Shown: positions 6,998 through 11,066 of the stretch, in pieces | Numbering within the stretch: position 1 is the stretch's first letter | How the letters are laid out: each line of letters starts with the position of its first letter | DNA from: Bryobacterales bacterium | GTDB lineage: Bacteria > Acidobacteriota > Terriglobia > Bryobacterales > Bryobacteraceae | Length of the DNA: 12,524 nucleotides | NCBI GenBank assembly: GCA_003142355.1 | Contig: PLMF01000113.1 | Location: 42,993-55,516 of the forward strand | Direction: 5' to 3' | Notes under the pieces: generated by a model | Told to the model about the DNA's origin: nothing | The model's input: the letters and a program-made list of their open reading frames with translations, nothing else | Databases searched by the model: none | Translations under genes and position numbers: made by a program

Positions 6998-7153
6998 GTT
7001 ATGAAATGAGAGGGCAAGCTAAAGCATGCCCCACCACGTTGCGGCGGGTGAGGCGGTGTGCTATGTGTGGGTTAGACTATCGACCCGACTGAAACCGCCC
7101 CGCTTACGCCAGGAGCGACGGTTCATCATAATTTTTTCGAAGGATGGCATCCT

Positions 7154-7462
7154 GTGGAAGCTGTCAACCGCAAACTCATTCGTCCGTCTCTTAACGAGAT
7201 CAAAGAACAGATCGCGCCTCCCCGCCGGGCCGCCCCGCCGCAGAAAAAGCCTGTTCCGCCGGATCAGACCAATGCGGAGAATTTTTACTACGTGAAACAG
7301 ATGCAGGCCAAGACCGCCATGGTCTTCGTGCTGCGCGATGGAGAAACACTTCACGGAACCATCGAATGGTACGACCGGTGCTGCCTGAAAGTGAATCGAA
7401 CCGGCGAGGCCAACCTGCTGCTCTACAAGCCGTGTATCAAGTACATGTACAAGGAGGGGTGA
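7154..7462 (+). CDS. hfq: Hfq-like Sm-domain RNA-binding protein
   Basis: 102 residues. Residues 1-42 are a basic, proline-rich tail, unusually long for Hfq. Residues 43-100 are an Sm fold: Sm1 spans about 43-80 (ENFYYVKQMQAKTAMVFVLR, DGETLHGTIEWYDRCCLKVN) and Sm2 is LLYKPCIKYMYK (89-100). This aligns with E. coli Hfq LNALRRERVPV ... NGIKLQGQIESFDQ ... YKHAI. Hfq hexamers bind U-rich and A-rich RNA and mediate small-RNA regulation. Oddity: the YKH motif of Sm2 reads Tyr91-Lys92-Pro93, so the uridine-contacting His is replaced. The start is a GTG at 7154, supported by GAAGGA 9 bases upstream; no in-frame ATG precedes it. A weak -10 (CATAAT, 7127-7132) lies close upstream. Its 3' end overlaps the convergent thioesterase gene by 26 bp. 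The symbol marks the family; this is a divergent member. Confidence 0.82.
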   Translation: MEAVNRKLIRPSLNEIKEQIAPPRRAAPPQKKPVPPDQTNAENFYYVKQMQAKTAMVFVLRDGETLHGTIEWYDRCCLKVNRTGEANLLLYKPCIKYMYKEG

Positions 7463-7946
7463 GAGGTGGAAAATGCGTCTGACCCCTTTTTGAGAGGCGA
7501 TACTCGCGGCGTTCTCCAGCTTCGCGGAAGCGCCGCTTTTCCTCTTCGGTTTCCGGAACGACGGGCGCAACGGCAGTGGCGTTCCCGATCTCATTGAGGG
7601 CCACGAACGTCAAGTGGGCGGAGCAGGTATGCAGGCGCTCGCCGGTCATGAGGTTCTCGGTGACCACCTTGACTCCCACTTCCATGGATGTGCGGAAGAC
7701 GCGGTTCACGGAGGAGTTCAGAATGATCAGTTCCCCGATATGGACCGGGTGGAGGAAATGCAAGCCATCGACGGAAGCCGTGACGACGGGCTTGCGCGCG
7801 TGCCGCATGGCGGCCATGGCGCCCGCCACGTCCACCAGGTGCATGACCTTTCCGCCTAGGACGTGACCCAGGCCGTTGGCGTCGTTGGGCAGCGCCAGCT
7901 CGGAGTATTCGGACGCCGATTCGCGAACCGGTTTGCCTTCCATCAT
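7437..7946 (-). CDS. Acyl-CoA thioesterase, hotdog fold (YciA/BACH type)
   Basis: 169 residues; hydrolyses acyl-CoA to free acid and CoA in the cytoplasm. The signature is LPNDANGLGHVLGGKVMHLVD (residues 19-39), with Asn24 and Asp39 at the positions of the catalytic pair in YciA-type enzymes. It is followed by AAMRHARKPVVTASVDGLHFLHPVHIGE (45-72), the substrate-channel strand. The ATG at 7946 overlaps the stop of the upstream glycosyltransferase fusion as ATGA, implying translational coupling; a second ATG follows at 7943. The hotdog domain ends near residue 135 and is followed by a charged helix (ETEEEKRRFREAGERREYR). From residue 153 on (KRGQTHFPPLTPPCTCT) the protein is encoded by a copy of the ATGCGTCTGACCCC repeat and the antisense of the Hfq-like gene end, so this tail is probably acquired. 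Substrate chain length cannot be told. Confidence 0.88.
   Translation of the reverse strand: MMEGKPVRESASEYSELALPNDANGLGHVLGGKVMHLVDVAGAMAAMRHARKPVVTASVDGLHFLHPVHIGELIILNSSVNRVFRTSMEVGVKVVTENLMTGERLHTCSAHLTFVALNEIGNATAVAPVVPETEEEKRRFREAGERREYRLSKRGQTHFPPLTPPCTCT
7470..7491 (+). repeat. Single copy of the ATGCGTCTGACCCC repeat (copy A)
   Basis: 22 bases, AAA-ATGCGTCTGACCCC-TTTTT, identical at the shared positions to the two arms at 8380-8430. It lies between the Hfq-like stop and the conserved part of the thioesterase gene, inside the thioesterase frame, where it encodes KRGQTHF. Confidence 0.85.
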
Positions 7947-8359
7947 TCCACCCTATTTCGACGCACTTTGCGGCGCAGATAGCTCTCGACATAGGCCTGC
8001 GCCTGGCGGCTCATGGTTTCGCCGGCAGGAGGATTCACGAATGCTCCCGAGGCCACGGAGTAATCCAGCGGCCCGTGAGCAAACGGATGGTGATCCCGCT
8101 CGAGGACGTAGTAAATGCGAAGGGAAGCGCCCTGGTCCCGCGAGACCGTGAAGCGCATCGCGTCGGGACCGTCGCCGGACGGGAAGCGGGCGCAGGTTCC
8201 GCGGGCATAGCCGAGGTTGCAGAGCCGCTGGAGCATGGCTTCGTCCGGCTGCCAGGGCAGATCGGGAACCGCCCGGCAGACGCCCGCCCATCGATCGCCC
8301 AGCGGCAGAATCGCAGTCGAGGCCCGCGGTTCCACCGGATAGAAGTAGGGGCAGGACAT
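7943..8359 (-). other. C-terminal cysteine-containing domain, probably an originally separate gene
   Basis: From the internal ATG at 8359 this segment encodes 138 residues with no membrane helix. It begins MSCPYFYPVEP and contains LPLGDRWAGVC, LCNLGYARGTCARFP, DAMRFTV, YVLERDHHPFAHGPL and a C-terminal RQAQAYVESYLRRK helix. Four cysteines are spaced C3-x24-C28-x18-C47-x8-C56, which could bind a metal or Fe-S centre. I recall similar stand-alone hypothetical proteins in Acidobacteriota genomes, but cannot verify this here. No Shine-Dalgarno precedes the ATG, so if it is made separately it would depend on coupling or reinitiation. Function unknown. Confidence 0.55.
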
Positions 8360-9877
8360 TTCGGAGGTATGGTACCGCAAAAAGGGGTCAGACGCATTTT
8401 TCGCGGCGAAAAATGCGTCTGACCCCTTTTCGAAGAGCACCAGGTCTACGTCGGCGAAGGGGCCCAGGCGGCGCTGATGCCAGGTGGCGAATTCGGGGCG
8501 GCGCGCGAACCAAGTCCGCCAGTAGGTCACTTGCGGTAACCAGCCGTAGATGAGGAAACGACGCGATTGCGCCAGCGTGGAAGCCTGGGATTCGGCTAGC
8601 GGCGAATTCTCGAAGGGGAACAGGTAGATCTTGCCCGAAATGGGATATACCGCCAGGTGGGCGTAGAGGAATCCGGGCAGCGGGTAGTCGGGGCGCCAGG
8701 CCGGCGGCCGGGCCTCAATGAACGGACTGGGGCAGATCACGGGGATCTCCCCGGCGGCTTGGAGCTGGTTGACGGCGCGGGCGGCGGCGCGCCAATCGGA
8801 GTTGTGATGATTCGGCCAGAGCTGGCGCCATTGTCCCAGAAAGAGAAAGACCCCGAGGGCGAATACGGCCGAGATGCGCCGCCACTCGCCGGCGGGAATG
8901 AACAGCGCCGCCATGGCGGTGGAGGCGAGGGCCGCGCCGGGCAGCGCCAGTTGCAGGTAGCGCGGGACGAAAACCGCGTCGCCGGTCAGCCAGGAAAAGG
9001 CGTACAGGAGGATGGGCTGGCATAGCCACCACGCGGCTATGAGAACGGTCGTGGTTAGGGGGAGCGGCCTCCCGCGCCGCGCGCGCACGATCAGCCATGC
9101 GCCCAACGCGCATCCCAGTACGAGCGTCAGTTCCAGAGAGCGGAGGAGCTGCCAGAGCGACGGCAGGGGCGCAAAGACGTGCGCTCGCACGTCGCGCAGC
9201 AAAGAGAGCGTCTGCGCCGCTACCGGCAGCAGCGCGAGCGCGTAAAGGCCGAAGACCAAGACCGCGCGCTTCCCATTCAGCGGAGTCTCGCCCCGGGCCA
9301 CGCGCGCCGCGGCATAGAGCACGAATACCAGGCACGAGGGCCAGAACAACAGGTGAATGTACTCGACCAGCGCGGCACTGGCGGCGAACAACAGGCCATC
9401 GCGCCACCGTCCGAAGTCGAGCCACCTCACCAGGAACAGCAGGGCGGCCGCGAACACGCACATTCCCAGGGCGTAAGGGCGCGCGTTGGCGGCCTGGTAG
9501 TTCAGGCCCGGCAAAGCGAGGCACGCAAAGACGGCAAACCAGGCCGCTTCGGGGTGAATCAGCCGGCGTGCGAGGCCAGCCAGAAGCAGGAGGAAACCGG
9601 CCATGGCCAGGATGGACGGCAGGCGAGTCGCCACCTCGGAATACCCCAGAACCGCGCCATTCATGCGGACGACGGGGTAGTACCAGGAGCGCCACGCCTG
9701 CGGCGCGGCGTCGGCGAGAGAAGGGTGATTCGCGCCGTGCTGCGCGACAAAGACAGTGGCCATCTCATCGAGCCAGAAGCTCGAAGGCAAGGGCATGAGC
9801 CAGAGCCGGACGAGGCACACCGCCAGCAGCAGCGGAAGCAGCGCAGATTTGCCGTTACCAGTCAACCACGGAGCCAT
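7943..9877 (-). CDS. GT-C membrane glycosyltransferase (PMT/ArnT-like) fused to a small cysteine-containing protein
   Basis: A 644-residue frame in two parts. Residues 1 to about 483 are a polytopic membrane protein like the PMT_2/ArnT glycosyltransferases. These transfer sugars from polyprenyl-phosphate donors on the outer face of the inner membrane. After helix 1 comes SSFWLDEMATVF with Asp37-Glu38, the usual GT-C acidic motif, then RLPSILAMAGF and ARPYALGM, and the last recognisable part is FADVDLVLFE. Residues 484-500 are encoded by a 51-bp palindromic repeat. Residues 507-644, starting MSCPYFYPVEP, look like a separate soluble protein. The start at 9877 is chosen because an upstream ATG at 9946 would overlap the preceding dehydratase gene by 92 bp; 9877 overlaps by 23 bp. 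No clear Shine-Dalgarno is visible. It overlaps the downstream thioesterase by ATGA. The glycosyltransferase class is well supported; acceptor and donor are unknown. Confidence 0.8.
   Translation of the reverse strand: MAPWLTGNGKSALLPLLLAVCLVRLWLMPLPSSFWLDEMATVFVAQHGANHPSLADAAPQAWRSWYYPVVRMNGAVLGYSEVATRLPSILAMAGFLLLLAGLARRLIHPEAAWFAVFACLALPGLNYQAANARPYALGMCVFAAALLFLVRWLDFGRWRDGLLFAASAALVEYIHLLFWPSCLVFVLYAAARVARGETPLNGKRAVLVFGLYALALLPVAAQTLSLLRDVRAHVFAPLPSLWQLLRSLELTLVLGCALGAWLIVRARRGRPLPLTTTVLIAAWWLCQPILLYAFSWLTGDAVFVPRYLQLALPGAALASTAMAALFIPAGEWRRISAVFALGVFLFLGQWRQLWPNHHNSDWRAAARAVNQLQAAGEIPVICPSPFIEARPPAWRPDYPLPGFLYAHLAVYPISGKIYLFPFENSPLAESQASTLAQSRRFLIYGWLPQVTYWRTWFARRPEFATWHQRRLGPFADVDLVLFEKGSDAFFAAKNASDPFLRYHTSEMSCPYFYPVEPRASTAILPLGDRWAGVCRAVPDLPWQPDEAMLQRLCNLGYARGTCARFPSGDGPDAMRFTVSRDQGASLRIYYVLERDHHPFAHGPLDYSVASGAFVNPPAGETMSRQAQAYVESYLRRKVRRNRVE
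8380..8430. repeat. Perfect 51-bp palindrome built of two inverted ATGCGTCTGACCCC copies
   Basis: Two 25-base arms (8380-8404 and 8406-8430) are exact reverse complements around a single central G at 8405. Each arm carries the same core as the single copy at 7470-7491. It is 17 codons long with no stop in the reading frame of the surrounding gene, where it encodes KGSDAFF, AAKNASD and PFL. It looks like a MITE- or REP-type palindromic element. Confidence 0.9.
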
Positions 9878-11066
9878 CGTCGGGATCGAAGCGAGGCGCG
9901 TACTGCCTGGGCTCGCCCACCTGCGCTTTGAGCTTGTCTTCGTCAATCGTGATTCCCAGGCCCGGATCGGTCAGCAGCGGACGGTGGCCGTTTCTGACCG
10001 GCGGCAAGGGCTTTGCCAGGAGATCCGCATAATCGGCGTCGCCATTCTCCTGGATCAGGAAATTCGGGATGGAGGCGGCAATTTGATAGCTGGCCGCGAG
10101 GGAACAGGGTCCCTGCGGATTATGCGGCGCAATGGGCGTGTAGTAGGCTTCCGCCATGCCCGCAATGAGCCGGAGCTCGGTGATGCCGCCGGCATAGCAT
10201 ACATCGGGTTGCAGAATGGTGGCGGCGCGTTTCTCGAGAATTTCCTTGAATCCCCATTTCGTGTAGATGCGCTCGCCGGTGGCGAGGGGAATATGGGTCT
10301 TGCGGGCCAGTTCGGCCATGATATCCACGTTGAGGCATTGAACCACCTCTTCAAAGAAAAATGGCTGGTAGGGTTCGAGGGCCTTCATGAGAAGCAGCGC
10401 CGTGGGCGGTTGTACGGCGCCGTGAAAGTCGATGGCGATATCGGCGCCCGGGCCGTACTTCTGGCGGAGAGCCTTGAAGTTATCCACGACCGCATCGATG
10501 TACTTGGGGCTCTCGACGTACTTGATGGCGCCTCTTCCCAAGGCGCTCGGGCCGGTCTTCATGGCGTTGACGCCGGTCTCTTCACTAATCCTTCCATAGA
10601 CCCGGATGCGGTCCCGGGTGGGGCCGCCCAGAAGCTTGTAGACCGGGACGCCGTAGACCTTCCCTTTGATGTCCCAGAGCGCCTGATCGATGCCGCTCTG
10701 GATGGCGGTCTTGATGGGACCGCCGCGGTAGAAGGCGCCGCGGTGAATGGCCTGCCAGTGGAAGACCACGCGACAAGGATCCTGGCCCACCAGGTAGCGT
10801 CCGACCTCCTGCGCGCCGGCGGCGCAGGCTTTGGCATCGTCCTTGAGCATTTCACCCCAGCCGACGATGCCAGCGTCGGTGGAGATCTTGACAAAAACCC
10901 ATGAGTTTTTCAGAACGAAGGTTTCGAGCTTGGTGACCTTGATATTGTCGTTGGGGCCGACTGGGGCGGCGGGGCTTGGTTCGGCGGTAAAGGCCTCATC
11001 CAGACCAAGCAGCGCGCCCGTGCCGACCAATCCGCGAATTGCGGAGCGGCGATCTACTTCCGACAT
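9855..11066 (-). CDS. DgoD-like mandelate racemase/muconate lactonizing family dehydratase with Tat-like leader
   Basis: 403 residues, complete. Enolase-superfamily enzyme that should dehydrate or rearrange a sugar acid with Mg2+. Asp213 and His215 lie in IDFHGAV, Glu239 in FFEEVV, Glu265 in ATGERIYTKWGF and His315 in APHNPQGP. Relative spacing is the same as I recall for E. coli D-galactonate dehydratase (D183, H185, E209, E235, H285), a constant offset of 30, and the stretch ILQPDVCYAGGITE (284-297) is also close to it. The N-terminus, DRRSAIRGLVGTGALLG (residues 5-21), resembles a twin-arginine leader, although Ala replaces the usual Phe. GGAGGTG lies 7 bases before the ATG. It follows the alcohol dehydrogenase by 34 bp and overlaps the glycosyltransferase, so co-transcription is likely. 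It resembles the dehydratase at 1-1061 but is not a recent duplicate. Exact substrate unknown. Confidence 0.9.
   Translation of the reverse strand: MSEVDRRSAIRGLVGTGALLGLDEAFTAEPSPAAPVGPNDNIKVTKLETFVLKNSWVFVKISTDAGIVGWGEMLKDDAKACAAGAQEVGRYLVGQDPCRVVFHWQAIHRGAFYRGGPIKTAIQSGIDQALWDIKGKVYGVPVYKLLGGPTRDRIRVYGRISEETGVNAMKTGPSALGRGAIKYVESPKYIDAVVDNFKALRQKYGPGADIAIDFHGAVQPPTALLLMKALEPYQPFFFEEVVQCLNVDIMAELARKTHIPLATGERIYTKWGFKEILEKRAATILQPDVCYAGGITELRLIAGMAEAYYTPIAPHNPQGPCSLAASYQIAASIPNFLIQENGDADYADLLAKPLPPVRNGHRPLLTDPGLGITIDEDKLKAQVGEPRQYAPRFDPDDGSVVDW

Follow-up and report, generated by a model that had tools for sequence, protein, structure and literature searches.

A terminal-repeat doublet at a gene junction probably joins two reading frames in a Bryobacterales genome

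Background

How does a perfect palindrome come to lie within an open reading frame, at the border of what appear to be two genes, and did it join them? The question is raised by a stretch of 12,524 nucleotides from a Bryobacterales bacterium (contig PLMF01000113.1; hereafter, the window), in which a minus-strand frame of 644 codons (7943..9877) runs through such a palindrome. An earlier note on this DNA proposed that the element inserted in a short intergenic gap, removed the upstream stop and created a single frame, and compared it with the Rickettsia palindromic elements.

Several classes of small palindromic repeats are relevant; the papers PMC3733652, PMC6006769, PMC3116915 and PMC8049555 are cited here from excerpts. 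The repeats of TIRYT transposases (“TIRtrons”) have the consensus GGGGWSAS, are often dimeric and are described from Acidobacteria among others (PMC3733652; PMC6006769). The CGTC REPs have a terminal CGTC and a stem of 8-9 bp, and have no link to a transposase (PMC3733652). Intragenic REPs of other classes are known as well; RPE-4 and RPE-6 from Rickettsia conorii are examples (PMC3733652).

Results

The palindrome and the joined frame

The palindrome occupies 8380..8430 on the minus strand and is built from two 25-nt units AAAAGGGGTCAGACGCATTTTTCGC in inverted orientation, separated by 1 nt; the arms 8380-8404 and 8406-8430 are 100% complementary (25+1+25, 51 letters). The glycosyltransferase frame reads it as KGSDAFFAAKNASDPF(L) and stays open throughout: ...DVDLVLFE-KGSDAFFAAKNASDPFL-RYHTSE-MSCPYFYPVEP.... 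The perfect 51-bp palindrome open in the coding frame, as given in the earlier note, is thus confirmed. Its length is indeed a multiple of three; this is not what kept the frame, since the element replaces target DNA rather than being simply added to it.

The division of the frame 9877-7943 also agrees with the earlier description. Before the palindrome there is a GT-C glycosyltransferase part (PMT_2, PF13231) of 483 residues (8431..9877, minus strand), whose final Glu codon has two bases in common with the palindrome; after it a 138-residue protein (7943..8359, minus strand) starts with MSCPYFYPVEP at the ATG at 8359. The fused frame corresponds to protein cluster P0001, with 21 member sequences on 8 contigs. 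In a fused protein the junctions would be spanned by the predicted peptides LVLFEKGSDAFF, VLFEKGSDAFF and HTSEMSCPY (or HTSEMSCPYF).

Four of the six frames in the palindrome are free of stops, two of three on each strand. The openness of a single unit in six frames was considered as a special property and rejected: dinucleotide shuffles are equally open, and composition explains it. The coding-strand RNA at 8360-8450 has a folding energy of -54.7 kcal/mol; 200 shuffles give -21.9 (sd 3.1), so that z is -10.6. The hairpin is followed by TTTTT and in this respect resembles a terminator; it is the sole terminator-like site detected in 7000-10000, a count that carries no evidential weight, as shuffles average 2.3 such sites. 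Rfam matches, to miRNA families and isrG, are far under the gathering scores.

The empty site in the closest relative

Eleven loci in Acidobacteriota MAGs were matched by the 138-residue protein; six of them are titled Bryobacterales, and the titles as a whole are of Acidobacteria (Bryobacterales, Terriglobia, Acidobacteriia, Solibacter). The closest, L001, is collinear with the window over about 8 kb on both sides of the junction, with 88.8-94.1% nucleotide identity in the long matching stretches, and it is the only one of the 11 in which the glycosyltransferase was found. In L001 the glycosyltransferase ends with LFEAPPL-TAG, the ATG of the second gene lies in another frame, and the junction has neither the palindrome nor a copy of the unit; the empty site with a stop between the genes, a comparison suggested in the earlier note, is therefore found.

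The flanks of the window and L001 can be aligned as far as GAA at one end and TACCATACCTCCGAAATG at the other. Between them, 37 nt of L001 correspond to the doublet of the window and five further bases, which means that sequence was replaced and not only added. The earlier proposal is supported in each of its steps at the DNA level, with the limit that the element took the place of sequence and did not only insert.

On the downstream side the window retains, at 8360..8379 (minus strand), a remnant of the conserved leader of the second gene (TTGCGGTACCAT), where the relatives have TG before TA(C/T)(C/T/G)AT. In the alignment of the window with the 11 relatives, the TG close to the ATG is kept in all relatives, in 10 of them as TTGTG and in L010 as CCGTG; its T is altered in the window alone (TTGCGGTACCAT), at the edge of the doublet. 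The conserved TG-TA(C/T)(C/T/G)AT before the ATG is possibly a promoter-like extended -10 element. No clear ribosome site was seen before this ATG in the 12-sequence alignment, and the 138-residue gene of the relatives may start leaderless. As far as the alignment can be read, the insertion is accompanied by loss of target sequence and by an altered promoter-like site. The comparison shows the empty site, as in L001, to be the earlier state, though L001 may itself have changed.

The downstream two-gene unit

The 138-residue match begins at the same ATG in all 11 relative loci, and 736 stand-alone homologues were found among proteins of about 76-241 residues; the downstream protein is a separate one, as had been supposed. 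Its cysteines 3, 28, 47 and 56 are invariant in 34 aligned sequences. The family has no match in Pfam or NCBIfam. A predicted model (mean pLDDT 68) gave no fold match at E <= 0.001, and matches to antibodies (best E 3e-4) were taken as chance.

The gene is followed by a 4HBT thioesterase gene (7437..7946, minus strand), with which it overlaps by ATGA. The two are paired in 10 of the 11 relative loci; the thioesterase was not found in L005. The 3' end of the thioesterase gene carries a single repeat unit (AAAAAGGGGTCAGACGCATTTT; 7470..7491, minus strand), about 0.9 kb from the doublet and absent at the same place in L001; the earlier note had overlooked it. The L001 protein ends with EYRLARRKSPR-stop, and that of the window is extended by the unit to RLSKRGQTHFPPLTPPCTCT-stop (EYRLSKRGQTHFPPLTPPCTCT-stop). 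Here too, sequence was replaced. The repeat sites 7470-7491 and 8380-8430 thus flank the conserved two-gene unit, and both are empty in L001.

Ends of other glycosyltransferases

The glycosyltransferase search matched 1019 proteins; 120 were listed and 22 compared as sequences. Twelve of the 22 terminate within about eight residues past the last conserved Phe/Leu-Glu, five bear other tails (P0009, P0017, P0019, P0067, P0071), and one is P0001, the window's own fusion. The remaining four (P0008, P0012, P0016, P0078) enter the downstream gene in another frame and have no palindrome peptide; from this overrun we conclude that loss of the glycosyltransferase stop codon is tolerated in general. Compared by eye, the out-of-frame overlap of these four with the downstream gene is about 100 codons.

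Among 151 candidates for longer proteins containing the 138-residue protein there was a single match, P0001 itself. Both halves joined without the palindrome, an observation that the earlier note had named as decisive against its proposal, were thus not encountered in this set, and the viral contigs held no relative of the fused protein. The joining of the frames is, judging from these comparisons, real and confined to one lineage, and its roughly 70-kDa product is predicted.

A dispersed repeat family

The doublet is made of two copies of a repeat dispersed in soil Acidobacteria, GGGG(A/T)CAGACGCATTTT. The pattern AAAAGGGGTCAGACGCATTTT was searched with up to 3 mismatches in 200 genomes of the family, and the same pattern read backwards served as the control. 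Near-matches occur in 36 of the 200 genomes versus 13 of 200 for the control. Five or more near-matches (6 to 50) are held by 14 genomes, four of which have 29 to 50, and the control never gave more than two per genome. The commonest form among the copies listed is AAAAGGGGACAGACGCATTTT. Inverted doublets are found in L060, L062, L104, L106, L116, L144 and others; many copies in the 48 stretches that were read are of this kind, their 16-nt cores being 12-46 nt apart (11 nt in the window). One doublet (L060) and one single unit (L131) are present in the L001 genome.

The family is revealed by the 3-mismatch search only: near-matches were found in relatives, the exact variant of the window was not. 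The exact palindrome core was found in none of 41 relatives, the exact 19-mer of the window in none of 396 genomes of the phylum, the exact doublet pattern in none of 101 genomes of the family, and the 12-mer of the window nowhere in the genome G001. The viral contigs do not contain the 19-mer; the loose doublet pattern occurs in six of them, always as other GGGGTCAGACCC repeats, and the two-sequence RAYT profile found no frame in these six. Phages and plasmids gave no match to the repeat.

Association with RAYT transposases

Of the 130 copies listed, 12 lie within 600 bp of a Y1_Tnp match against 0.21 expected (Poisson P 1.5e-17), and 8 of 76 Y1_Tnp matches take part in such pairs. The count covers 13 of 16 genomes (G464, G500 and G511 are without listed places) and the copies listed, at most 20 per genome. 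A RAYT near a listed copy was found in five of the 13 genomes (G021, G447, G448, G476, G506); in the other eight, including G001, G487 (20 of 50 copies listed) and G456 (20 of 29), no listed copy is near a RAYT. Y1_Tnp genes are common anyway, being present in 25 of 41 relatives. In L140, L142, L146 and L147 inverted units stand on both sides of the transposase gene. All four proteins tested match NCBIfam REP_Tyr_transpos (REP-associated tyrosine transposase), one of them reaching the curated cut-off and the other three scoring below; for the copy-adjacent proteins of L142, L146, L147 and L134, Pfam gave Y1_Tnp only, with E up to 0.1.

As to the class of the element, the GGGGWSAS motif is present both in the window (GGGGTCAG) and in the commonest form (GGGGACAG), and the repeat is dimeric, dispersed and multi-copy, with two sites in the window itself. 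The unit has no GT(A/G)G tag, and its consensus folds weakly (-2.2 kcal/mol as DNA, with a broken stem). Neither does it agree with the CGTC REPs: CGTC is internal to the unit, there is no stem of 8-9 bp, and the link to RAYTs is present. It is very likely that the element is a terminal-repeat doublet of the TIRYT type and that the joining of the two reading frames is real. The repeat is probably mobile; transposition is what we infer from its distribution.

Copies inside genes

The 48 stretches and the window were read with a simple codon model. Of the coding frames that reach a copy, 18 stop before it or at its edge, 8 end inside (5 of these by a stop created at the very edge of the copy) and 17 pass through. 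These 17 are made up of 2 in the window, 5 of antisense or spurious appearance, 8 that stay within a single gene (L105, L106, L120, L123, L125, L127, L128, L137) and 2 gene-end extensions (L107, L108). We discount L117, L119 and the frames L109+, L119+, L124+, L105- and L128-, which are probably spurious or antisense.

Five of the eight within-gene copies were compared with homologues (metH, FtsW-PBP, ImuB-like and methyltransferase genes). In metH (L127) the copy occupies the variable linker that separates the cobalamin from the activation domain; the length is about that of nine relatives, two genomes being omitted because their matches were partial or split. The copy of the methyltransferase (L123) is likewise in a variable linker (6 homologues aligned), and that of FtsW-PBP (L128) is in a linker (8 homologues aligned), with the relatives also having one frame. 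FtsW-PBP was considered as a second fusion made by the repeat and rejected, since in 11 of 12 genomes both domains are covered by a single frame longer than 1000 residues, the exception being G476, with partial matches only.

In the gene that we label ImuB-like (Pfam IMS matches L137 just under the cut-off and L106 not at all), doublets are present at the same linker in three genomes (L106, L137, L182) and in none of six others, three partial matches being left out. Repeated insertion at this one site is possible, to judge by the alignment. The reading frame of the element is the same in L106 and L182 and different in L137.

The copies encode recurring stock peptides, KKGTDAF...NASVPFL and QKGDRRIF...KMRLSPF. 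Thirteen other same-strand junctions, counted by hand, have a copy no more than 100 nt from both genes, and none of them is joined in frame (L060, L104, L107, L109, L111, L112, L113, L114, L116, L119, L121 and two in L124; RAYT flanks omitted).

Discussion

Proposed explanation

We propose that the palindrome is a REPIN-like hairpin doublet of a small non-autonomous repeat, which would have spread in this Acidobacteriota family with the help of a RAYT of the TIRYT kind; the repeat is presumably copied by the RAYT via single-strand intermediates. An ancestor of the window's species would have received the doublet where the glycosyltransferase gene meets the two-gene unit. Compared with L001, it replaced about 30-37 nt, corresponding there to the last codons of the glycosyltransferase, the stop and a part of the next promoter-like leader. 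With the palindrome open in two of the three coding-strand frames and the phase fitting, one 644-codon frame resulted. Translating ribosomes may keep the hairpin from forming or from terminating transcription, so that some read-through fusion is made; the 138-residue protein would then be a C-terminal extension of a membrane enzyme, perhaps also produced from its own ATG. Gene ends and linkers, in which a few lost codons would do no harm, are frequent places for copies.

We estimate that roughly one in five such stop losses should give an in-frame join, given that two of three frames are open and the next ATG is in the required phase in one case of three; selection is therefore not needed. We regard the event less as a selected fusion than as a side effect, tolerated by the host, of a repeat often located at gene ends and linkers.

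Alternative explanations

The joining might exist on paper only: the 138-residue protein would be made solely with the help of the ATG and leader of its gene, while the message of the glycosyltransferase would end at the hairpin and, lacking a stop codon, be subject to tmRNA rescue. We put the chances of this a little short of even. The hairpin with TTTTT is terminator-like and could block a full-length fusion mRNA, the ATG and the TACCATACCTCCGAA ahead of it are retained, and in every other sequence examined the downstream gene stands by itself. However, the window alone, unlike all 11 relatives, has an altered TG in the extended -10-like site, and the sequence upstream of it was replaced by the element, which suggests that the gene's own promoter is probably weaker; besides, terminators within translated frames are usually masked by ribosomes. 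A functional fusion maintained by selection, in which a cysteine-bearing protein is tethered to a membrane glycosyltransferase, we consider improbable, although the frame is intact in a cluster of this size and both halves have dN/dS below 1 relative to L001 (glycosyltransferase 0.23, 138-residue gene 0.44; thioesterase 0.12). The value for the 138-residue gene rests on 29 changes and is the highest of the three, and the insertion is not datable from it; the fusion is limited to one lineage; and the extension of the thioesterase by the same repeat nearby looks incidental. The C-terminal part of GT-C enzymes is usually outside the cytoplasm, where a protein otherwise made on its own would hardly be expected.

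The origin of the palindrome itself can also be disputed. An A-tract, a GC-rich stem base and a T-tract give it the shape of a terminator, and it might be an intrinsic bidirectional terminator or a local inverted duplication formed in place; yet the unit recurs 0.9 kb away and at many sites in related genomes, both genic and intergenic, and copies adjoin RAYT genes, which leaves this origin hardly credible. Perfect palindromes are prone to assembly error, and a chimera of the metagenome assembly could be suspected; we regard it as extremely unlikely, since the cluster of the fused protein extends over 8 contigs (a cluster-level count), the longest of 113,618 bases, and collinearity with L001 holds to the left and right of the junction. 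The RAYT-linked doublet remains our preferred reading.

Relation to known elements

The element is like the TIRYT repeats in its GGGGWSAS motif, inverted dimers, adjoining Y1 (IS200-like) transposases and genome-wide repetition (PMC3733652, excerpts). It differs from the described TIRs in that its sequence family is one of L001 (Bryobacterales) and its relatives. TIRYT transposases are of subclass 2.1 with a C-terminal HTH or DnaA-like domain; the Pfam matches of the four proteins here, at E up to 0.1, are to Y1_Tnp only. With REPINs and REP doublets it shares the two inverted units forming a hairpin, the dispersal and the RAYT link (PMC3116915, PMC8049555, excerpts); unlike GTAG REPs and the classical REPIN, it has no GTAG tag, and its single unit folds weakly. 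Intragenic REPs are similar in that palindromic dimers encode about 20-30 in-frame residues in unrelated genes, including DNA repair genes (PMC3733652, excerpts); theirs are of the tag classes GTAG and CGTC, while here copies replace linkers and one bridges two genes. The comparison with the Rickettsia palindromic elements made in the earlier note is apt for an in-frame palindrome that adds a peptide, a likeness of behaviour and not of compared sequences; it does not by itself place the element among them, and here the element is a RAYT-linked terminal-repeat doublet in another phylum.

The kind of element is thus already known, and the joining of two genes is the unusual part. The excerpts of PMC3733652 and PMC6006769 contain no in-frame TIR copies in genes and no gene-fusing TIR junction, and no description of a REP joining two genes was found in the literature searched, which was covered in part. 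With a repeat-free relative for comparison, the junction shows the states before and after the joining of two genes by a small repeat, and the repeat family sits in frame within enzymes such as methionine synthase. Two ideas become testable: that proteins are shaped by RAYT-linked repeats, and that a gene fusion can start with the insertion of a short open palindrome. A bolder view is that in these Acidobacteriota a RAYT-driven repeat is a general maker of protein linkers, its doublets, for the most part without stops, overwriting gene ends and variable linkers between domains, adding stock peptides and sometimes welding genes; we find it rather doubtful. Equally tentative is its corollary that the glycosyltransferase fusion is a new multidomain protein caught in the making.

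Other features of the window

A small Hfq-like protein (under the Pfam cut-off) is encoded at 7154-7462, convergent with the thioesterase gene. The genes 3-1076 and 9855-11066, similar to each other and about 10 kb apart, have in common a 74-nt stretch with 76% identity; the latter gene belongs to the enolase superfamily (MR_MLE) according to Pfam.
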